DNA of 40,491 nucleotides from Enorma burkinafasonensis (GTDB lineage Bacteria > Actinomycetota > Coriobacteriia > Coriobacteriales > Coriobacteriaceae), in the NCBI RefSeq assembly GCF_902150035.1, contig NZ_LR597513.1:1-40491 (forward strand). Reading direction: 5' to 3'. Position 1 is the stretch's first letter. Every line of letters starts with the position of its first letter. The position numbers and the translations under genes are program-made. Below, in pieces: positions 2,485 to 33,950 of the stretch. The notes under the pieces were generated by a model, which ran no database searches, was not told where the DNA came from, and saw nothing but the letters and a program-made list of their open reading frames with translations.

Positions 2485-4110
2485 ATGGAGCACACCAAGC
2501 CTTCGTACTACATCACCACGCCCATCTACTACGTGAACGCCAAGCCGCATCTGGGGACGGCGTACTGCACGGTCCTCGCCGACGTGCAGGCGCGGTTCCG
2601 TCGCTCGTGCGGCTACGACGTCAAGTTCCTCACCGGTATGGACGAGCACGGCGAGAAGGTCGCCGAGGCCGCCGAGAAGAACGGTTTCGACTCGCCGCAG
2701 GCGTGGTGCGACTCCATGGAGCCGGCCTTCCGCGACCTGTGGGGCGAGCTCGAGATCTCGAACGACGACTTCATTCGCACCACGCAGCCGCGCCACATCG
2801 CCGGCGTGCAGCGGTTCCTCGAGGTCCTGCTCGACCGCGGCTACATCTACAAGGACGCCTACGACGGCTGGTACTGCCGCCCGGACGAGACCTACTTCAC
2901 CGAGACTCAGGTGCGCCACCACGAGGAGGAGCGCGTCGCCGCCGGCGAGGCCCCAGCCGACCCGGAGCACCCGCTCTGCCCCGACTGCGACCGCCCGCTC
3001 GAGCGCATCAAGGAGGAGAGCTGGTTCTTCAAGCTCTCCGCGTTCCAGCAGCCGCTGCTCGACTTCTATGAGGCGCATCCCGACTTCATCCAGCCCGAGA
3101 CCCGCCGCAACGAGGTGCTCTCGTTCGTGAAGGGCGGCCTCAAGGACCTCTCCATCAGCCGCTCGACCTTCGATTGGGGCGTGCCGTTCCCGTTCGACGG
3201 CAAGCACGTCGCCTACGTGTGGGTCGACGCCCTCATCAACTACCTCTCGGCCGTGGGCTACGGCGCCGAGGGCGACGACGCGGCCCAGACGCTCGCCTTC
3301 CGCTGGCCCGCGCAGGTGCACGTGGTGGGCAAGGACATCATCCGCTTCCACTGCGTGATCTGGCCGGCGCTGCTCATGGCCGCGGGCCTGCCGCTGCCCG
3401 AGAAGGTCTTCGTGCACGGCTTCCTCACCGTGCGCAACGAGGAGACCGGCAAGATCGAGAAGATGAGCAAGAGCCGCGGCAACGTGATCGCCCCGCAGGA
3501 GGTCGTGGACCTGGTCGGCGTGGACGCGTACCGCTACTACTTCATGACCGACGTGGTGCACGGCGCGGACTCGCCCATCTCGTGGGGCCGCATGCGCCAG
3601 GTGTACAACGCCGACCTCGCCAACAGCTGGGGCAACCTCGTCTCGCGCACGCTCAACATGAGCGCGAAGTACTTCGACGGACGGGCGCCCGAGCGCCCGG
3701 CGGACTTCGACCGCGCCTCGGCGCTGCACGACGCGTGCGCGGGCGTGTTCGAGCGTTATGCCGAGCGCATGGAGGCCATGGACTTCGGCGGGGCGGCGAG
3801 CGAGGTGCTCGGCATCGTCTCCGCGGCGAACCACTACATCGAGGACATGGCGCCCTGGGCGCTCGCGAAGGACCCCGAGCGCGCCGACGAGCTCGCGTAC
3901 GTGATCTGGAGCCTGCTCGAGGTGATCCGTATCGCCTCCGAGCTCTACGACCCCTTCATGCCGAGTATCTCCGCCGAGGTGCGCCGCCGCCTGTCGCTCG
4001 ACCCCGCGCCGACGGCCGACCTGGCCGCTGCGTGCGCCTGGGGCGGCCTCGCGGGCGGCGCGCCGGTCGAGAAGGGCCAGCCGCTCTTCCCGCGCCTGAC
4101 CGACGAGTAG
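2485..4110 (+). CDS. metG: Methionyl-tRNA synthetase
   Basis: Charges tRNA-Met with methionine in the cytoplasm (class I synthetase). The 541 residues show ITTPIYYVNAKPHLGTAY, whose PHLGT (residues 21-25) is the HIGH box, then TGMDEHGEKV. A CPDC pair (Cys165/Cys168) lies in the connective region. HVAYVWVDALINYLSA and IRFHCVIWPALLMA follow, and the KMSKS loop is at residues 326-330. A helical anticodon-binding domain fills roughly 370-510. The C-terminal EMAP/Arc1-type tRNA-binding domain of the long bacterial form (about 660-680 residues) is absent, so this is the short form. GGAGGGG (2470-2476) lies 8 bases before the ATG. rsmA follows after 6 bases in an apparent operon. Confidence 0.97.
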   Translation: MEHTKPSYYITTPIYYVNAKPHLGTAYCTVLADVQARFRRSCGYDVKFLTGMDEHGEKVAEAAEKNGFDSPQAWCDSMEPAFRDLWGELEISNDDFIRTTQPRHIAGVQRFLEVLLDRGYIYKDAYDGWYCRPDETYFTETQVRHHEEERVAAGEAPADPEHPLCPDCDRPLERIKEESWFFKLSAFQQPLLDFYEAHPDFIQPETRRNEVLSFVKGGLKDLSISRSTFDWGVPFPFDGKHVAYVWVDALINYLSAVGYGAEGDDAAQTLAFRWPAQVHVVGKDIIRFHCVIWPALLMAAGLPLPEKVFVHGFLTVRNEETGKIEKMSKSRGNVIAPQEVVDLVGVDAYRYYFMTDVVHGADSPISWGRMRQVYNADLANSWGNLVSRTLNMSAKYFDGRAPERPADFDRASALHDACAGVFERYAERMEAMDFGGAASEVLGIVSAANHYIEDMAPWALAKDPERADELAYVIWSLLEVIRIASELYDPFMPSISAEVRRRLSLDPAPTADLAAACAWGGLAGGAPVEKGQPLFPRLTDE

Positions 4111-9804: not shown

Positions 9805-9892
9805 GCGCCCCGGCACCGCGGCGCGCGGAGCACGCAGGCCGTTCATCGCATCTTAAGCGTTTCTTCCCTACTGCCCTCGGCGAATCGTTACC

Positions 9893-9898
9893 TATACT
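9893..9898 (+). promoter_or_regulatory. Possible -10 element ahead of the VanS-like kinase
   Basis: TATACT, followed by a TTACC...GGTAA inverted repeat across 9889-9914. It suggests the kinase has its own promoter as well as read-through from the regulator gene. Confidence 0.35.
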
Positions 9899-9984
9899 TA
9901 ATTAACGGTAAGGATGACATTCACTGAGGCGGGCAGGGCCGTTTGCGCGAACCCGCCGTTCCACCGCTGGGGAGACGACGGAAC

Positions 9985-24487: not shown

Positions 24488-24989
24488 GCAGACCTCCAAA
24501 GGTAGTGTTCTGCCGATACGACAGGGTTCGTCGTGAGAGATTATAGGGTGATTGCCGCCGTTAAGAAACCATTTATCCGACCAGAAATACCGATTACCGA
24601 TAACATATGTAGAAACTGTGGTGAACAATTTACGAAATGCAAACAGTTCTTTACATGCTCGGGACATTGCGTCCATCGCTCGCTGCGTGGTGCGCGCACG
24701 TAGTGCGGAGCGGCGCGGCCGCGGCATCGGCTGGAGCACCGGGACCGGATCACGGGAGATGGGGCCCGGCATCCGGATGGTCCGGAACACGCCGTGAGCG
24801 ACCGACCATGTCGCCTCAGTGCGAAATTGACGGCGCGAAATGTTCCGCATCACAGGTTTCGACCAACGCCAATCGGCTAAAATGTACGTTTACGTGGCAA
24901 GCCCTTGCCTTCTTGGAATTACTAACGGGGCCATGGTTGTACCGGGGCGCGAGAGCGCCCGTCGTTTCGATGTATCGGGAGGGATACAT
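24488..24989. other. 502-base divergent promoter region of pyk and the P-type ATPase
   Basis: Contains the pyk promoter (24540-24568, minus strand) in a clearly AT-richer stretch (about 24535-24660). A TAAAAT -10 candidate for the ATPase is at 24878-24883, followed by a leader of roughly 100 bases with a GGGCGC-GAGA-GCGCCC hairpin (24945-24960) and the ribosome-binding-site hairpin. I see no gene in it. Confidence 0.55.
24540..24568 (-). promoter_or_regulatory. Promoter of pyk
   Basis: On the minus strand a consensus TATAAT (24540-24545) lies 17 bases downstream of TTTCTT (24563-24568), about 53 bases before the pyk ATG. Confidence 0.65.
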
Positions 24990-24992
24990 TTG
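24971..24992 (+). promoter_or_regulatory. Ribosome-binding site inside a hairpin loop, before a TTG start
   Basis: TGTATC (24971-24976) and GATACA (24983-24988) form a perfect 6-pair stem whose loop is exactly GGGAGG, the Shine-Dalgarno. The TTG start (24990) follows after one base. This decides the start of the ATPase and suggests translational control. Confidence 0.65.
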
Positions 24993-27671
24993 AAGGAGTA
25001 CCTAGCTTCCGCTGAGGACGTGCTCGCGGAGCAATCCACGAGCGAGGAGTCCGGTCTGACTTCCGCCGAGGCGCAGGCGCGCGCGGCGAAGTTCGGCCCG
25101 AACAAGCTCAAGGAGGAGGAGAAGACCCCGCTGTGGATCCGCTTCTTCCAGCAGATGGCCGACCCCATGGTCATCATGCTCATCGTCGCTGCGGTCATCT
25201 CGGCCGTGACCGGCATGATCCAGGGCGAGTCTGAGTGGGCCGACGTCATCATCATCATGACGGTCGTCATCATCAACTCCGCGCTCGGCGTCATCCAGGA
25301 GGCCAAGAGCGAGGAGGCGCTCGCCGCGCTGCAGGAGATGAGCGCCGCCCAGTCCAAGGTCATCCGCGACGGCAAGCAGATCGCGCTGCACTCCTCTGAG
25401 CTCGTCCCCGGCGACATCGTGCTGCTCGAGGCCGGCGACGCCGTGCCCGCGGACTGCCGCGTGCTCGAGAGCGCCTCGATGAAGATCGAGGAGGCCGCCC
25501 TCACCGGCGAGTCCGTGCCCGTCGAGAAGCACACGGACGCCATCGAGCTCGCCGAGGGCACCGACGACGTGCCGCTCGGCGACCGCAAGAACATGTGCTA
25601 CATGGGCTCCACCGTGGTGTACGGCCGCGGTCGCGCCGTCGTGTGCGGCACCGGCATGGACACCGAGATGGGCAAGATCGCCGGCGCCCTGAACGACGCC
25701 AAGGAGGAGCTCACCCCGCTCCAGATGAAGCTCGCCGAGCTCTCGAAGATCCTGACCATCATGGTCATCGTGATCTGCGTGGTCATCTTCGCGGTCGACA
25801 TCCTGCGCACGGGCCTCGGCACCGTCGCCGCCGAGCCGCACATGCTGCTCGACACCTTCATGGTCGCCGTGTCGCTCGCCGTGGCCGCCATCCCCGAGGG
25901 CCTCGTGGCCGTCGTGACGATCGTGCTCTCCATCGGCGTGACCAAGATGGCCAAGCGCCAGGCGATTATCCGCAACCTCTCCGCGGTCGAGACGCTCGGC
26001 TGCACGCAGGTCATCTGCTCCGATAAGACCGGCACCCTCACCCAGAACAAGATGACGGTCGTCAAGCACGAGCTCGCCTCCTCCGAGGAGAAGCTCCTCG
26101 CCGGCATGGCGCTGTGCTCCGACGCCAAGTGGGACGATGAGGCCGGCCAGGCCGTGGGCGAGCCCACCGAGTGCGCGCTCGTGAACGACGCCGGCAAGGC
26201 CGGCATGACCGGGCTCGACGTCGAGCACCCGCGCGTGGGCGAGGCGCCGTTCGACTCCGGCCGCAAGATGATGTCCGTCGTGGTCGAGGAGGCCGACGGC
26301 TCCTTCGAGCAGTACACCAAGGGCGCCCCCGACGTCATCCTGGGCCTGTGCACCCAGGTCTGGCAGGACGGTGAGATCGTCCCCATGACCGACGAGCGCC
26401 GCGAGCAGCTGCTCGCCGCCAACAAGGCCATGGCCGACGAGGCGCTCCGCGTGCTCGCGCTCGCGTCCCGCAGCTATGCCGAGAAGCCGGCCGACTTCAG
26501 CGCCGAGACGCTCGAGCACGACCTCGTGTTCTGCGGCCTCTCCGGCATGATCGACCCCGAGCGCCCCGAGGTGGCCCCGGCCATCGCCGAGGCGCACGGC
26601 GCCGGCATCCGCACCGTCATGATCACGGGCGACCACATCGACACCGGCGTCGCCATCGCCAAGAACCTCGGCATCGTCGAGGGCCGCGACGAGGCCATTA
26701 CCGGCGCCGAGATCGACAAGATGTCCGACGACGAGCTCGACGCCCAGATCGAGAAGTACGGCGTCTACGCGCGCGTCCAGCCCGAGCACAAGACCCGCAT
26801 CGTCGAGGCGTGGAAGTCCAAGGACAAGGTCGTCGCCATGACCGGCGACGGCGTGAACGACGCCCCGTCCATCAAGCACGCCAACATCGGCGTGGGCATG
26901 GGCATCACCGGCACCGACGTCACCAAGAACGTCGCCGACATGGTGCTTGCCGACGACAACTTCGCCACGATCATCAACGCGTGCGAAGAGGGCCGTCGCA
27001 TCTACGACAACATCCGCAAGGTCATCCAGTTCCTGCTCTCCGCGAACCTCGCCGAGGTGTTCTCGGTCTTCGCGGCCACGCTCATGGGCTTCACGCTGTT
27101 CCAGCCCATCCAGCTGCTGTGGGTGAACCTCGTCACCGACTGCTTCCCCGCGCTCGCGCTGGGCATGGAGGAGGCCGAGGGCGACGTCATGAAGCGCAAG
27201 CCGCGTAACGCCACCGACGGCGTGTTCGCCGGCAACATGGGCCTCGACACCGTGGTCCAGGGTGTCGTCATCGCTATCCTCGTGCTCATCAGCTTCTTCT
27301 GCGGTGTGTACTTCGACCTGGGCGAGATTGACCTCTCGCAGCTCGCCACCTCCATGGCGGACGAGGAGGGCGTCATGATGGCGTTCATCACGCTCAACAT
27401 GGTCGAGATCTTCCATTGCTTCAACATGCGCAGCCGCCGTGCCTCCATCTTCCACATGAAGAAGCAGAACAAGTGGCTGTGGGGCGCCGCGTTCCTCGCG
27501 CTCATCCTCACGCTCGTCGTGGTCGAGGTCGACGCGCTCTCGATGATCTTCTTCGGCGTGGAGCACCTCGAGCCCAAGGGCATGGTCACCGCGCTCGCGC
27601 TCGGCTTCCTGATCATCCCGATCGTGGAGATCTACAAGGCCATCATGCGCGCCGTGGAGAAGGAGCAGTAA
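24990..27671 (+). CDS. Calcium-type P-type ATPase (P2A)
   Basis: An integral membrane cation pump of 893 residues, most like SERCA/PMR1-type Ca2+ ATPases. An N-terminal cation-ATPase domain (LTSAEAQARAAKFGPNKL) precedes two TM helices. The actuator has LTGESVPVEK. M4 contains AAIPEGLVAVVTIVLS. The phosphorylation site is CSDKTGTLTQNKM (Asp345). TKGAPD is in the nucleotide-binding domain, and MITGDHIDTG and MTGDGVNDAPSIKHA form the hinge. M6 carries the Ca2+-type NLVTDCFPALALG. Specificity is inferred from PEGL in M4 and N..TD in M6. The TTG at 24990 is chosen from its ribosome-binding site, with no ATG or GTG competitor in frame nearby. It stands alone and probably exports Ca2+. Confidence 0.93.
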   Translation: MKEYLASAEDVLAEQSTSEESGLTSAEAQARAAKFGPNKLKEEEKTPLWIRFFQQMADPMVIMLIVAAVISAVTGMIQGESEWADVIIIMTVVIINSALGVIQEAKSEEALAALQEMSAAQSKVIRDGKQIALHSSELVPGDIVLLEAGDAVPADCRVLESASMKIEEAALTGESVPVEKHTDAIELAEGTDDVPLGDRKNMCYMGSTVVYGRGRAVVCGTGMDTEMGKIAGALNDAKEELTPLQMKLAELSKILTIMVIVICVVIFAVDILRTGLGTVAAEPHMLLDTFMVAVSLAVAAIPEGLVAVVTIVLSIGVTKMAKRQAIIRNLSAVETLGCTQVICSDKTGTLTQNKMTVVKHELASSEEKLLAGMALCSDAKWDDEAGQAVGEPTECALVNDAGKAGMTGLDVEHPRVGEAPFDSGRKMMSVVVEEADGSFEQYTKGAPDVILGLCTQVWQDGEIVPMTDERREQLLAANKAMADEALRVLALASRSYAEKPADFSAETLEHDLVFCGLSGMIDPERPEVAPAIAEAHGAGIRTVMITGDHIDTGVAIAKNLGIVEGRDEAITGAEIDKMSDDELDAQIEKYGVYARVQPEHKTRIVEAWKSKDKVVAMTGDGVNDAPSIKHANIGVGMGITGTDVTKNVADMVLADDNFATIINACEEGRRIYDNIRKVIQFLLSANLAEVFSVFAATLMGFTLFQPIQLLWVNLVTDCFPALALGMEEAEGDVMKRKPRNATDGVFAGNMGLDTVVQGVVIAILVLISFFCGVYFDLGEIDLSQLATSMADEEGVMMAFITLNMVEIFHCFNMRSRRASIFHMKKQNKWLWGAAFLALILTLVVVEVDALSMIFFGVEHLEPKGMVTALALGFLIIPIVEIYKAIMRAVEKEQ

Positions 27672-27707
27672 GGCTTCTTTCACGCAGCACATAGTGCCCT
27701 GAGATGA

Positions 27708-27752
27708 CGGGCGCGTCCTCGCCGCTTCGCGGTCGCAGGGCGCGCCCGTTTC
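27708..27752 (+). terminator. Probable terminator of the ATPase gene
   Basis: ACGGGCGCG (27708-27716) pairs with CGCGCCCGT (27742-27750), with further CCGCTTCGCGG pairing in the loop, followed by TTT. Only a short T tract. Confidence 0.55.
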
Positions 27753-27856: not shown

Positions 27857-28070
27857 ATGCGCGTTTGGGATCTCTGGGCGGATTTTAGCAGGAAGCGGCT
27901 TTCGCAGGGCCCTCGTCTTGCTACATCGCGCCCGCAGATCGCGTTGGCGCTTCGGGAGCGGAGCGGTGCCGGCGTCGCGGCGGCGCGGTCCCGCTTTGGG
28001 ATTCGCAAGCAGAAAAACGACGGAGGGTACCCTTCTGGAGCCCTTCACGGTAGATTTTCTGCTTGCGAAT
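27857..28070 (+). repeat. Double-hairpin intergenic repeat, copy A
   Basis: The first half (27857-27956) holds an imperfect hairpin, 27869-27890 with 27918-27940, whose inner flank TTTAGCAGGAAG and later CCTCGTCTTGCTA are shared with copy B. The second half holds a perfect 16-pair hairpin: ATTCGCAAGCAGAAAA (28001-28016) with 28055-28070. Copy B lies at 32411-32629 in the same orientation, on the other side of the surface-protein gene. Confidence 0.8.
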
Positions 28071-28124
28071 GCACAGAGAAAATGTGTCGAAATTGCCGGC
28101 AAACGGTCAGTCAACCTACCATTC

Positions 28125-28140
28125 GGTCGTATATACGACC
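28125..28140. promoter_or_regulatory. Perfect 16-bp palindrome upstream of the surface-protein gene
   Basis: GGTCGTATATACGACC, flanked by CCATTC and CATTGG in partial symmetry. The AT-rich centre TATATA could be part of a promoter, making this a likely operator, 85-100 bases before the start codon. Confidence 0.6.
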
Positions 28141-28178
28141 ATTGGGTAATCAGGGGGCGTCTCGCGGGGGCGGGGGGA

Positions 28179-28184
28179 TACCAT
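28179..28184 (+). promoter_or_regulatory. Possible -10 element of the surface-protein gene
   Basis: TACCAT (context ATACCATAAG), 41 bases before the ATG. It matches the recurrent hexamer seen upstream of other genes in the window. Confidence 0.35.
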
Positions 28185-28225
28185 AAGCGGAATCTGTACA
28201 CCGCTTGCACGTAAGGTGGTCCCGC

Positions 28226-31200
28226 ATGGCTTCGCACCGCGGCTATCGCTCATCCCGTTTCAGGTGGCTCGGCGTCCTGCCGGCCGTCGCCGCGCTCCTG
28301 CTCGCGACGGCGCCCGTCCTCGCGAGCGCGCAGCCGTCCCCGGCGCGCGCCGGCGAGGAGTGGCTCCCCGATCCCACGATTACGATCGAGGACGCATCGG
28401 GGCTGCCGATCACGCTGGATGACGGCGACGTCCTCCCCATCAGGAACGTGACCTACAGCGCCGAGACCGGCGTGAGCCCCATCGCGCTCGCCGATAACGC
28501 GACGGCGACCATCATCGTCGAGGGCACGGTCGAGCTCAACGGCGCCGACGCCGAGGGCCGCACGGGCGCCACGCCCGCCATCGAGGTCCCCGAGACCGCG
28601 ACGCTCGTCGTGTACGGCGCGCACGACGAGGAGCTCGCCGGCACCTACGAGGCGCCCGAGGACTCGCTCATCGTCACCGGCGGCGACCCGGCTGTTGGCG
28701 AGGACGGCCAGGATGCGCGGAGTGCCGGGTACGGAGAAGGTAACGTAGATTTTCTTCCCACTTCGGGCAACGGGGGAGCTGGCGGCGGAGGTGGCGCGGC
28801 AGCCATCGGCGGTAGAGGCGGCGACGGCGGTGCGGGCGGTGCCGGGACTGCCGGAAGCATGAACCGCGATGGCGAGCCGCGTGTCGAATGGTGGGCGCGT
28901 TGGAAGAACGACGAGCTCGCGTCCATCGAAGGCTCGGGAAACGACGGGACCATGGGTCGCGATGGTGAGACCGCAGAGGCGGGCGAGCAGGGCGCAGGAT
29001 GCGGTTCTGTGTATCTGCTGGGTCGCCTGAACATCACGGCGTCGACTTCCGGCGAGAACGCGACGGGCGGCCACGGTGGCAGCGGTGACGGCGGAGGCAA
29101 CGACAACGATGACGGCATTGGAATCGGCGACGGAAAGACGTGGGAGCTGTACGGCGGCGCCGGCGGTGGCGGCGGCGGTGGCGGCGGTACGGCCGCGGCC
29201 GCGATCGGTGCCGGAGGCGCCGGCGGCAGCGGCGGCGGCGGCGGGGGAACGGGACCCTCAGACGATGCCTACAATATGTCTACGACGCAAGACCATCCGG
29301 ACACGGCGCCGGGTGGTGGCGGCGGTGGCGGCGGCTGGCCGAACGGCGGTGGCGGCGGCGGTGGCGGCCCTGCCGACTTTTACGCATATGCAGTTGATGC
29401 CGACAGCTATGGTGGCGATGGTGGTCCCGGCGGTGAAGACAACGGCATCATCGGAGCCGGCGGATATATCATCTCTGAAAGAGGCGAACGCTGGGATCGG
29501 TACCCTGGAAGAGGTGGAGCTGGCGCAGGTGGCATCGACTCGACTGATCAGGCGCTCGGGGGCATTAGAGTTTACGCTCCCGGCTATACCATCCACGATC
29601 CGGATATCTGGAGCGGGTCCGGCGGGTACGGCGGCGGTCCGGTCGCCGCACGGGAGTGGGGATCCAGCGATGGCAAGCCGGCACTCGTGATGAGCACGGC
29701 GGGTCTCTACACGCTTTCGAATGAGGGGAGCCTCGGCTATGCGTGTGGATCGGGCGGCGGCAGCGGTGCCGATGCCCGTGTAGCCACCGAACCTCGTCTC
29801 GTGTACGAGGCCGAGGACCTCGCATACGAGCCGCTATCCGGGGCGGAGGGCTCCTACACCTACACTGGCGGGCAGATTCGCCCGGAAGGAGAGTTCGGCA
29901 CAAGCGCGAGGTACACGGCAGAGTCGGATCGCGACGGGCAGCTCGTGCCGGGTGCCGTCGAGGAGGAGCTCTCGGTCTCCACGACGGGCGATCCCGTCTA
30001 CGGCGAGAACATCCACTGCCCCGAGGGCACGGTCACCTTCGATGCAACCGGCCTGACCGACCGCGCGGACGTGCTCAGACGGCTGCTGGACCCCAGCGAC
30101 ACCGAGCCTATCATCGTGGGCTCCCAGATCACCTGGCGGTTCCCCATCAACAAGGCGACGTTCACCGAGGCGCCCATCAGCTGGAGCACCGAGGGGGACG
30201 TGCCGCGCGTCGGCGAGCCCATCACGCTCTCGCTCGATAGCTATGTGTTCAAGGGCGCCGATGGCGAGGATGTCGAGGGGAGCCTCTCCGAGCTCTGGCT
30301 CGATGCGGATGGAACGGTCGGCGCCCCCACGGTCTTCTGGAGCGCCGAGGGGGTCTCCTACGGGGAGTTCTCCTCCGATGGGAGCCTCCAGACCACGTTC
30401 ACGCCGTATGCCTCAGGCAAGGTCGTCATCCGGGCAGCCATCCTCTATGAGGGCGGCTCCGACCTGGACATGAACGATTTCGTGCACTATGAGACGACGC
30501 TGGAGCTCGAGGTGCAGGTCGGTTCGGATCCGGTTGAGATTACCCTCGACGATGACGGCGACGCCTGCTACGGCGACCTGATCCCGTTCACCGTCACGGG
30601 ACCCGATGGTATGCACATCGATCAGGTCGTGGCGGCGGGCGACGGGGAGATCCGCGCGTACGACCCGCTGACCGGCGAGGGCACGCTCAAGTGCGCCGGT
30701 GCGGGAACGGCGATCGTGATAGCGATCTGTCCCGAGAGCTCAGGCTGGGACATCGCGAGCGTCGAGGTCGCGAAGAGGAGCATCACTGCAGAATGGTCAG
30801 GCACGGAGGACCGTGTCTACGACGGGACCGCCTCGGCGGTGTGGGCGGACTTCGATGATTACATTTTCCGGGGAGACCAACTATACGGCGACGTAATCTC
30901 CCCGGTCACCGGTGGTAACGCTGTGCTCGGCGGGAGACATACGGCAACCGTGGAGCTTGCAGGCGGCCATGCCGACGACTTCGTAGTCACGAACCCGACG
31001 GTCGAGTACGAGATCTTGCAGGCGGCATCGTCGACGCTTACCCCCCGTGTCCTAAACGAGGAGGGGACGCAGGAGATCGACAGCGCGGTCTACGGAGACG
31101 TCGTCGTGCTCGAAGCGGTGGTCACGCCGGGGACCGCTGGGGCGCCTGGGGCCCGGACCGGGGACTCCGATGCGCCGGACGCACCCGATGCTTCGACATT

Positions 31201-32355
31201 CACGTTCACCGTGGACGGAGAAGAGCTGGAAGGGGAGCGCTCGGAGGTGAGCGTGGGCACCGACGGGTCGTTCACGATGCGCTTTACCTACGATACCGCC
31301 TCGCGCCAGATGCCGGTCGATGTGAACGAAATCACCTTCAGCTTTGCAGGCGATGACAGCATGCCGGCGGCTGAGGAAACCGATTCTCTGACGCTCGAGA
31401 GGGCCCCGTTGGGTATCTCGCTCGAGGCCGCCTATGAGAAGCCCTATGACGGGACGACCGAGGTCACCGGCGTCGAGTTCAGCTTCAGGGGCGTCGTGGG
31501 CGACGATGAGCCCTACGTCATCTGGGATGACGCCGCGTGGATCGCGGCCGACCCGGGGACGGATACCGTGCGGGTGTCGGGTATAGCGCTCGGCGATGAC
31601 TATGGCGCGTGGTATGACTTGGACGATGGCGTCGAGGCAGATGGCATCGAAGAGAGAGGCCCTTAAACCGCGCTGCCATCCGCGCGGCCGACGTCGACGT
31701 GACGGTCGAGCTTGAGGGCAAGGTCTACGACGGCGAGCCCGTCGGCGAGCCCGAGGTCGCTGTCACCGCCGAGGCTGGGACGGTCAGCACGGGCGAGGTC
31801 ACGGTGACCTGGTTCGCCTCCAACGGCCAGGGCGGCTGGAACGAGATCGAGGGCGCGCCCGCGGACGCCGGCGACTACAAGGTCGAGGCAACGGTCGCGG
31901 CTGACGACAACCACAACGCGAGCGCCGAGCCGGGCGTCGCGCTCTTCACGATCGCCAAGGCACCCCAGGATGCCCCCTCGGGCGTGACGTCGACGGGGGA
32001 GACCTCTCCGGATGCCGGTGACGGCACGATCTCCGGCCTGCCCGCGGGCTCCGAGTGGCGCCCCGAGGGCGGCACGTGGGCGGACGCCCCCGAGGGCGGC
32101 ACGGTAGAGGGGCTCGCGCCCGGAGCCTACGAGGTCCGCATGAAGGGCGACGCCAACCACGAGCCCTCCGAGGCCGTGACGGTCCGCGTCGACGCGGCGT
32201 CCGCGCTCGCGGGAATCATCGGGTCCCTCGGCGGGGCCTCAGGCGATGCCCAGGGTGGCATCCCCAGCACAGGTGACCCCGCCGCCATCGCGGGTGTCCT
32301 CGCCGCCGCGGGCGCAACCGCGCTGGCCGTGGGCGCCATGCGCCGCCGCCGCTAA
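28226..32355 (+). pseudogene. Gly-rich, YDG-domain cell-wall surface protein, frameshifted before its sortase anchor
   Basis: Frame 1 runs from ATG 28226 (AAGGTGG upstream) to TAA 31664-31666, 1146 residues. The remainder, to 32355, lies in the -1 frame. Together they make one surface adhesin-like protein: a signal peptide (cleavage about ASA|Q, residue 35); a beta-rich segment; a Gly-rich domain (about residues 175-515) with several runs of 6-9 Gly; Ig/MBG-like domains with the marker YDG near 30817 (VYDGTASAV), 31445 (PYDGTTEV) and 31725 (VYDGEPV); and a C-terminal sortase signal IPSTGD (32260-32277), a hydrophobic helix and RRRR. The frame change falls at or before AGGCCCTTAA (31658-31667). 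As it stands the first product is secreted but not wall-anchored. A one-base deletion or an assembly error are both possible. Confidence 0.82.
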
Positions 32356-32373
32356 ACCGGCCCTGGGCAGTCC

Positions 32374-32405
32374 CAGAAGAGCCCGGCACTACGTGTGCCG
32401 GGCTC
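32374..32405 (+). terminator. Rho-independent terminator of the surface-protein gene
   Basis: AAGAGCCCGGCAC (32374-32386) pairs perfectly with GTGCCGGGCTCTT (32392-32404) around loop TACGT, followed by TTT. It lies 19 bases after the stop. Confidence 0.88.
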
Positions 32406-32410
32406 TTTCC

Positions 32411-32629
32411 ATGCGCGCGTTTTGAATCTGCGGGCACGATTTAGCAGGAAGTGCCCTTCGCTAAGCCCTCGTCTTGCTAAATCGTGCCCACAGATCGCGG
32501 CGGCGCTTCGGGTACCGGGTGGTTCTCTGCAACATCGCACCGCCCGGCTCGCTGTGAGAATCACAAGCAGAAAATCGATTGTTCGTGCCTCCAGAGGCTC
32601 TTTTTCAGTCGATTTTCTGCTTGCGAATC
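32411..32629 (+). repeat. Double-hairpin intergenic repeat, copy B
   Basis: Hairpin 1 pairs 32426-32446 with 32475-32495 (20 of 21). Hairpin 2 pairs 32558-32578 with 32609-32629 (19 of 21). ATGCGCG, TTTAGCAGGAAG, CCCTCGTCTTGCTA, CAGATCGCG, GGCGCTTCGGG, CAAGCAGAAAA and GATTTTCTGCTTGCGAAT are shared with copy A in the same order and orientation. The loop of hairpin 2 carries GCCT-CCAG-AGGC followed by TCTTTTT, a small terminator-like unit absent from copy A. Confidence 0.82.
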
Positions 32630-32777: not shown

Positions 32778-33950
32778 ATGGCGAAACGGGCCAAGACCAA
32801 GGGCAAGCGCGGTACGCGCCGGGCGCGGGAGGACGCTGCCGCATCCAGGCAGCTCGATGCCGCCGAGGCGATGGCGTCCCTGCCCAAGATCGACGCCCTC
32901 CACGACCTGCCGGCGTTCGGCGACCTCAGCTGCGATGACGCGCAGCGCGCCGCGTTCGATGGCTTCTGCCGGGCGGCTGAGAGCCCAGACGAGATGCACC
33001 TGGGCTGCGTCGTCCGCCTCGACCGCGGGTTCCCGCTGGTCGTGACCGAGCAGGCGACGCTTCGTGCCGAGCACGCGGTGGGCTTCGCCAAGCAGGACAA
33101 GGACCTCGGGCAGGTGCTCTTCCCGGCGGTGGGCGACTGGGTGGCGATCCGCATCGCGCCGGGGCACGACATGGGCGTGATCGAGCGCGTGCTGCCGCGG
33201 CGCACGGCGTTCGAGCGCTGGCGCGGCAAGAACCGCGGCGAGCGCCAGGTGCTTTGCGCCAACGTCGACACGATCTTGATCGTCCAGGCGCTCGGCGCCG
33301 GCGAGGTGCTGCTCGGCCGCATCGCGCGCTCGCTCGTGCTGGCGGCGGATTGCGGCGCCGAGCCCGTGGTGGTGCTCACCAAGGCAGACCGCTGCGATGA
33401 CGAGGAGCTCTCCCGCGAGCTCGAGCGCGTGCGCCGGCTCGTGGGGCCCGCGGTCGAGGTCGTCGTCACGTCCTCCGCGACGGGGGTCGGCATGGACGGC
33501 GTGCGCGCCTGCGTGGCGCCGCGTACGTGCGCGATGATTCTGGGCGAGTCGGGCGCCGGCAAGTCGACGCTGCTCAACATGCTGCTCGGCCACGAGGCGC
33601 TCGAGACGGGCGCGGTCCGCGAGCGCGACGACATGGGGCGGCACACCACGGTCGCCCGCGTCATGGTGAAGCTGCCCGGCGACTGCGGCGTGATCGCCGA
33701 CGCGCCCGGGCTGCGGAGCCTGCCGCTCGTGGGGCACGAGCGCGGGCTCGCGCGCACGTTCCCCGAGGTGGTGGAGGCGGCGCGCGGCTGCCGCTTCAAC
33801 GACTGCACGCATACGCACGAGCCGGGCTGCGCCGTGCGGGAGGCGGTCGAGGCCGGCGAGATCGACCCCATGCGCCTCGAGGTGTTCGGCGCCCTCGCGT
33901 CCGAGATGCGCGTGAGCGCCCAGAGCCTGGACCCGGACATTCACCTGTAG
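32778..33950 (+). CDS. rsgA: Ribosome small-subunit-dependent GTPase RsgA
   Basis: A circularly permuted GTPase that checks late 30S maturation. It has 390 residues, longer than usual because of a basic Lys/Arg N-terminal tail and about 60 extra residues before the OB fold. The permuted order is clear: OB-fold strand HLGCVVRLDRGFPLVV and VGDWVAIR; G4 VVVLTKADRC; G5-like VTSSATGVGMD; then G1 GESGAGKST (residues 256-264); the G2 region DDMGRHTTVAR; and G3 DAPGLRSL. The zinc knuckle is CRFNDCTHTHEPGC. G3 reads DAPG instead of DTPG, a mild change. GGAGGGCGGGC precedes the ATG. Confidence 0.95.
   Translation: MAKRAKTKGKRGTRRAREDAAASRQLDAAEAMASLPKIDALHDLPAFGDLSCDDAQRAAFDGFCRAAESPDEMHLGCVVRLDRGFPLVVTEQATLRAEHAVGFAKQDKDLGQVLFPAVGDWVAIRIAPGHDMGVIERVLPRRTAFERWRGKNRGERQVLCANVDTILIVQALGAGEVLLGRIARSLVLAADCGAEPVVVLTKADRCDDEELSRELERVRRLVGPAVEVVVTSSATGVGMDGVRACVAPRTCAMILGESGAGKSTLLNMLLGHEALETGAVRERDDMGRHTTVARVMVKLPGDCGVIADAPGLRSLPLVGHERGLARTFPEVVEAARGCRFNDCTHTHEPGCAVREAVEAGEIDPMRLEVFGALASEMRVSAQSLDPDIHL

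Follow-up and report, generated by a model that had tools for sequence, protein, structure and literature searches.

The two direct repeats that bracket a surface-protein gene in Enorma burkinafasonensis, a species of a genus within the Coriobacteriaceae, are each built from two different hairpin elements, H1 and H2, which form two separate families dispersed over the genome. Covariance models run against the whole genome detected 11 H1 and 7 H2 copies, mostly single and intergenic. Single H1 or H2 elements also turn up at about 14 further sites, most of them next to ordinary core genes, so they are scattered mobile-looking repeats rather than cassette markers. Our best reading, which we hold with moderate confidence, is that H1 and H2 are two orphan REPIN-like families of non-autonomous palindromic elements, and that the bracketing reflects the local history of the locus. 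The window analysed here, 40,491 nucleotides, makes up the whole of contig C41 in a genome of 2,234,109 bases in 48 contigs (G000), and genome comparisons were based on one genome per species.

The ORF list places the surface-protein gene at 28226–31666 on the forward strand, as are all features of the locus described here. It encodes a signal-peptide-like N terminus, a glycine-rich region and a YDG domain (Pfam PF18657). The frame ends at 31666 and the C-terminal part of the protein lies in another frame at 31699–32355, with a sortase-like IPSTGD motif, a hydrophobic stretch and an RRRR tail at its end. A terminator-like hairpin (32377–32408), which was read from the sequence and missed by a simple terminator scan, follows the gene. 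The neighbours, identified by Pfam and conserved in relatives by synteny, are a cation-transporting P-type ATPase on the left (24840–27671) and the RsgA GTPase on the right (32778–33950), whose best database matches come from Enorma and Collinsella massiliensis records. Copy A (27859–28070) and copy B (32415–32629) are direct repeats with 72% identity over 214 bases (blastn, E 6e-24); a repeat search of the window returned the same family (D4) as 109 nt at 78%. Both run in the same direction from H1 (70 nt) through a linker of about 60 nt to H2 (70 nt). In copy A, H1 (27870–27939) has 24-nt inverted arms around a 22-nt spacer and scored 74.1 bits on the forward and 61.7 bits on the reverse strand with the H1 covariance model R1. 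Its linker (27940–28000) has blocks such as GGCGCTTCGGG in common with that of copy B, and its H2 (28001–28070), with arms of about 21 nt and a 28-nt spacer, scored 78.2 bits with the H2 model R2. The corresponding parts of copy B are H1 at 32426–32495 (83.7 bits), the linker at 32496–32558 and H2 at 32559–32628 (82.3 bits). When folded as single-stranded DNA and compared with dinucleotide shuffles, H1 and H2 gave z scores of -1.1 and -6.6 in copy A and of -7.3 and -5.4 in copy B, so that H1 of copy A, the weakest of the four, is a weak hairpin. A first-pass annotation, made from the letters of the window, had described two consecutive hairpins of about 100 and 70 bases in each copy, just outside the gene and its terminator. 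Block order, orientation and position were read correctly: copy B lies directly 3′ of the terminator-like hairpin and copy A ends about 155 bases upstream of the likely start codon (28226). The size of the first hairpin has to be revised, to 70 nt.

The surface gene belongs to the accessory genome. Among 66 relatives none has a homologue that covers most of the gene, the one match in the family having 29% identity over about 200 residues, and its GC3 is 0.79 vs 0.95 in its neighbours. In L017, L020 (Enorma massiliensis) and L022 (Enorma phocaeensis) the ATPase and RsgA genes lie 247–297 bases apart with no surface gene between them, and neither the gene nor the repeats are present in other Enorma species. 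In further relatives the site is variable and holds PTS-like operons or other genes; an Olsenella uli record (L040) carries an unrelated surface protein there. Such unrelated cargo comes without H1 or H2. A precise empty site of an H1 or H2 element was not obtained among the relatives, whose intergenic DNA is not alignable.

When the genome was searched with copy B alone, several further contigs gave matches to H1 without H2 or to H2 without H1, and the covariance models were built from these matches. The elements occupy 16 places in 2.23 Mb, in all gene orientations, and the genes next to the other copies include, as read from their translations, tyrS, uvrA, ilvC, topA, aspS and gltX. The H1–H2 composite is restricted to A and B, with no third example in the genome. 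Where the first-pass annotation had seen one repeat family, the repeats are real, but they belong to two families that also occur apart. The consensus arms are ATCTGCGGGCAGGATTTAGCAGGA for H1 and ATTCGCAAGCAGAAAATCGA for H2. One H2 copy (C32:50939) is located inside a conserved helicase gene and is read in frame, in a linker that varies widely between relatives. A clean empty site was not obtained in this gene, as the linker is hypervariable. H1 arms are found in this genome almost only as facing pairs within the 70-nt unit, and an arm search gave no sign of a longer element with these arms as its ends. Besides the pairs there are two single weak H1-like arms; at C11:7532 a degenerate facing arm can be made out by eye, while none was recognised at C35:48692. 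The impression that the repeat was undescribed has held: neither family matches Rfam at gathering scores, and no paper on them was found. Sub-threshold matches to Rfam microRNAs were rejected as chance hairpin scores.

Among the 11 H1 copies the arms have a mean pairwise identity of 82%, compared with 39% for the 22-nt spacers, in agreement with the earlier remark that arms are better conserved than loops, and not one of the 11 copies departs from a length of 70 nt. H2 behaves like H1 in fixed length and conservation, with one length difference of 1 nt. Arm positions still pair in 87% (H1) and 84% (H2) of cells, compared with 36–47% and 23–42% in a slid control. Double-sided arm changes are barely above shuffles for H1 (24/500) and show no excess in the seven H2 copies; they are few because arm conservation is at the level of sequence. 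Within their arms, the spacers of H2 give more stable folds than shuffled versions do (mean z -2.3, from only seven copies), strongly so in two copies of different sequence, whereas H1 spacers fold only slightly better than shuffled ones (mean z -0.8). Selection on structure, which had been proposed from the two copies, is therefore plausible on moderate evidence, chiefly because of the fixed length; pairing and H2 spacer folding speak for it, and the weak (H1) or absent (H2) covariation speaks against it. Since the copies are old (60–80% identical), the conserved length could equally mean a retained function.

REPINs, the best-known example of such hairpins, are linked to transposases of the RAYT type. 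They consist of two inverted conserved arms around a variable spacer, keep their length and their capacity to form hairpins, and have invariant 16-mers 71 bp apart (PMC3116915). H1 has this architecture, with 70 nt in 11/11 copies, arms at 82% and spacers at 39%. H1 and H2 also resemble REPINs (PMC3116915) in being hairpins of about 70 nt with inverted conserved arms and fixed-length variable spacers, intergenic, of several families per genome and occasionally clustered. They differ in their number, about 10 copies instead of hundreds, in the far greater divergence of the copies, and in having no RAYT (Y1) transposase, no GTAG-type tag and no evidently palindromic arms. The genome has no match to the RAYT domain Y1_Tnp (PF01797), which could still lie at a contig break of the 48-contig draft, given as 99.96% complete. 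Of 67 genomes in the family 55 carry this domain, and RAYT-sized proteins occur in 4/4 same-genus relatives. In 20 RAYT neighbourhoods of relatives we found neither H1 nor H2 nor kindred arms; several of them have other hairpins beside the gene, such as ones with GGGGACG-type arms. A link of H1 and H2 to RAYT was therefore rejected. Of 18 elements only 2 have GTAG or CGTC near the arms, and its position is not constant. H1 and H2 thus work like REPINs but lack two features that define these, the GTAG/CGTC-type tag and a Y1/RAYT transposase in the genome.

Among described architectures the REPIN comes closest. CGTC-tagged REPs are likewise palindromic repeats with no dedicated transposase and known intragenic copies, but they have stems of 8–9 bp and a CGTC tag (PMC3733652), in contrast to the untagged arms of 21–24 nt found here. 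H1 and H2 are small non-coding elements with inverted ends in many intergenic regions, as are MITEs, which can also flank gene cassettes. They differ from MITEs in that target-site duplications do not exceed chance (flanking direct repeats of 3.4 vs 2.7 at random positions for H1 and 2.3 vs 2.8 for H2). For H1, the arm search, in which two weak single matches turned up besides the facing pairs, brought up no insertion sequence from which it could derive its ends. Integron attC sites are also imperfect hairpins able to mark gene cassettes, but their conserved RYYYAAC/GTTRRRY ends are, by eye, missing from H1 and H2. Rickettsia palindromic elements are palindromic repeats that can be translated in frame as part of a protein-coding gene. 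They share this feature with the helicase copy described above, which is the only intragenic copy here and lies in a variable linker.

The relation between A and B bears directly on the history of the locus. Their H1 spacers are 73% identical, compared with 55% for the next best pair and 39% on average, and the two are sister copies, each other's nearest kin. Based on this kinship in the H1 spacer, the composite was most likely duplicated once, and the sister copies may record how the surface gene arrived. Since the resemblance extends beyond the arms, one copy would have been copied from the other, or both would have been duplicated when the surface gene entered the ATPase–RsgA site. On this reading A and B are a single H1–H2 composite that occurs twice, and the bracketing would be local history and not part of a system of repeat-marked cassettes. 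As to how the families spread, we infer copying in trans, to intergenic sites, of units whose recognition arms are inverted around a fixed-length spacer of nearly free sequence. An enzyme would recognise these arms, either folded into a hairpin or double-stranded as an inverted site. Since this genome yielded no such enzyme, the families may be remnants or may use some other enzyme. Movement is opposed by the lack of target-site duplications above chance, of a precise empty site, of a transposase with matching ends and of hits in viral contigs.

A cassette with the repeats as its boundaries had been proposed for the 4.5-kb locus, together with the possibility that recombination between the copies deletes or exchanges it. 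Such recombination is unlikely to be frequent today, since A and B have diverged by 28% and share no more than 18 identical bases in a row. The cassette itself is possible at this locus, where an accessory gene lies between sister copies and close relatives have nothing at the site; as a general rule it is not supported, given the lone copies and the topA pair, and the genome-wide search that had been suggested as a check returned composites only at A and B. In its MITE-like form, the gene arrived on DNA with one composite that recombined with a resident composite in a Campbell-type event, or moved as a unit between two composites. We consider this unlikely. The direct orientation of the sister composites around an accessory gene, in a site empty in L017, L020 and L022, is consistent with it, and identical MITEs that flank integrons in Acinetobacter are a precedent (PMC10969869). 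Moreover, elements lie within 5 kb of each other more often than under random placement (16 units with 4 such gaps, P about 0.001). However, the three close pairs besides A and B comprise one around a gene that is ancestral beside topA, one that starts inside the core helicase gene and one around what looks like decayed sequence. The topA–[H1]–zinc-ribbon gene–[H2] arrangement was rejected as a cassette, since the enclosed gene neighbours topA in both relatives examined. No recombinase and no transposase with matching ends was found in the genome, the divergence of A and B indicates no recent activity, and there is neither another composite in this genome nor an H1 or H2 beside the cargo that other species carry at the ATPase–RsgA site.

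Retention by selection as functional chromosomal or RNA elements, such as palindromic protein-binding sites or processed hairpins within transcripts, appears unlikely to us. Two 24-bp arms separated by a 22-bp spacer, about two helical turns, would suit a binding site, the H1 arm contains GCAGGA twice at a distance of 10 bp, as read from the sequence, and 11 H1 copies without length change despite strongly diverged spacers, as well as the stable folding of H2 spacers, would fit such a role. The presence of the elements at only 16 places in all gene orientations, their absence from matching places in relatives and the weak or absent arm covariation argue against it. Several elements lie shortly after stop codons, which might indicate transcription terminators, but no T-run follows the stem-loop, both the surface gene and the ATPase gene already end, as read from the sequence, in a terminator-like hairpin, one element is situated between divergent genes upstream of gltX and another within a gene, and neither A nor B was detected by a terminator scan. 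We therefore regard terminators as highly improbable. The reading as orphan REPIN-like families offers a practical lesson for such loci, namely that bracketing repeats should be counted genome-wide before a cassette is inferred. The elements are unusual in that the enzyme responsible for moving REPINs is missing from the genome, and REPIN-like families without a Y1 transposase would either reveal how families persist after their enzyme is gone or hint at a different way of moving short hairpins.

Our comparison with relatives suggests that each species has its own set of hairpin families. No close copy of H1 or H2 was found in 20 relatives by blastn, and the covariance models detected only weak relatives, of H1 in 3 of 60 and of H2 in 2 of 66 other genomes of the family. 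Viral contigs have no exact match to the arms. The matching intergenic regions of eight core genes contain neither H1 nor H2 in E. massiliensis (G004) and in a second genome of the genus (G002). In G004 a different hairpin follows aspS and another precedes gltX, which is, as we estimate, about as many as its general hairpin density predicts. A core, GAGAGGGCC...GGGGCCCTCTC, is common to H2 and a Collinsella family with other arms. It is conceivable, if quite improbable, that the Coriobacteriaceae have a class of 60–90-nt hairpins that is moved without RAYT by an unknown enzyme reading family-specific arms, with a core common to families across species, and that such hairpins, in pairs, are able to carry surface genes. 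For these questions, a good test bed is offered by a gut genus in which each species has several families and RAYTs occur in relatives. In E. burkinafasonensis, a survey of about 437 kb revealed three further small hairpin families with the arms GAGATACTG, CGTTAGGTGCAAA and GCATCGCATG. In 360 kb of G004 there are 73 hairpins, compared with 11 in a Markov control; among them are families of its own, of 60–85 nt, which include one that is H1-like and one like GCATCGCATG.

The interval between the genes for the cation-transporting P-type ATPase and the GTPase RsgA in a Collinsella record (L027) is a second example, at this site, of an insertion bracketed by hairpin direct repeats. A terminator-like hairpin of 80 nt downstream of the ATPase gene occurs there in two near-identical copies (3741-3820 and 9847-9926), which bracket a 6-kb cargo lying where the window carries its surface-protein gene. 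This post-ATPase hairpin retains the core CCTCGCCGCTTCGCGG or near variants of it, with arms that vary by species (window 27706-27750; relatives' records L018, L019, L020, L022, L027 and L029).

Between copy A of the double-hairpin repeat and the surface-protein gene in the window lies a perfect 16-base palindrome, GGTCGTATATACGACC (28125-28140), whose position is that expected of an operator. Within window 31640-31700 the reading frame of the gene shifts: its first frame stops at 31666, close to a GAAGAGAGAGG tract, and the remainder to 32355, including the sortase-like C terminus, lies in a different frame from the 5′ part. This frame change may reflect a pseudogene, a phase-variable tract or a sequencing error.

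Elsewhere in the same genome, two copies of hairpin family H1 are spaced by 1.2 kb on contig C29 (70330-71679; 10330-11680 of locus L136). The sequence between them looks decayed and contains a gene fragment of low GC3 and a tract of about 10 C. In a different genus of the family (G037; L244, L246 and L247), a long, near-perfect hairpin family with arms CAGTACCCAGAACTGAGAGAGAGGGCC shares its core with family H2, whereas the arms differ. Resembling REPIN-RAYT loci, RAYT-like transposase genes of two further Coriobacteriaceae are closely adjoined by hairpin repeats (L235 1783-1930 and L234 833-882 in G003; L243 3189-3238 and 4554-4603 in G006), including CCCAGGGG as a tandem pair and GGGGACGTAGCC as a pair.
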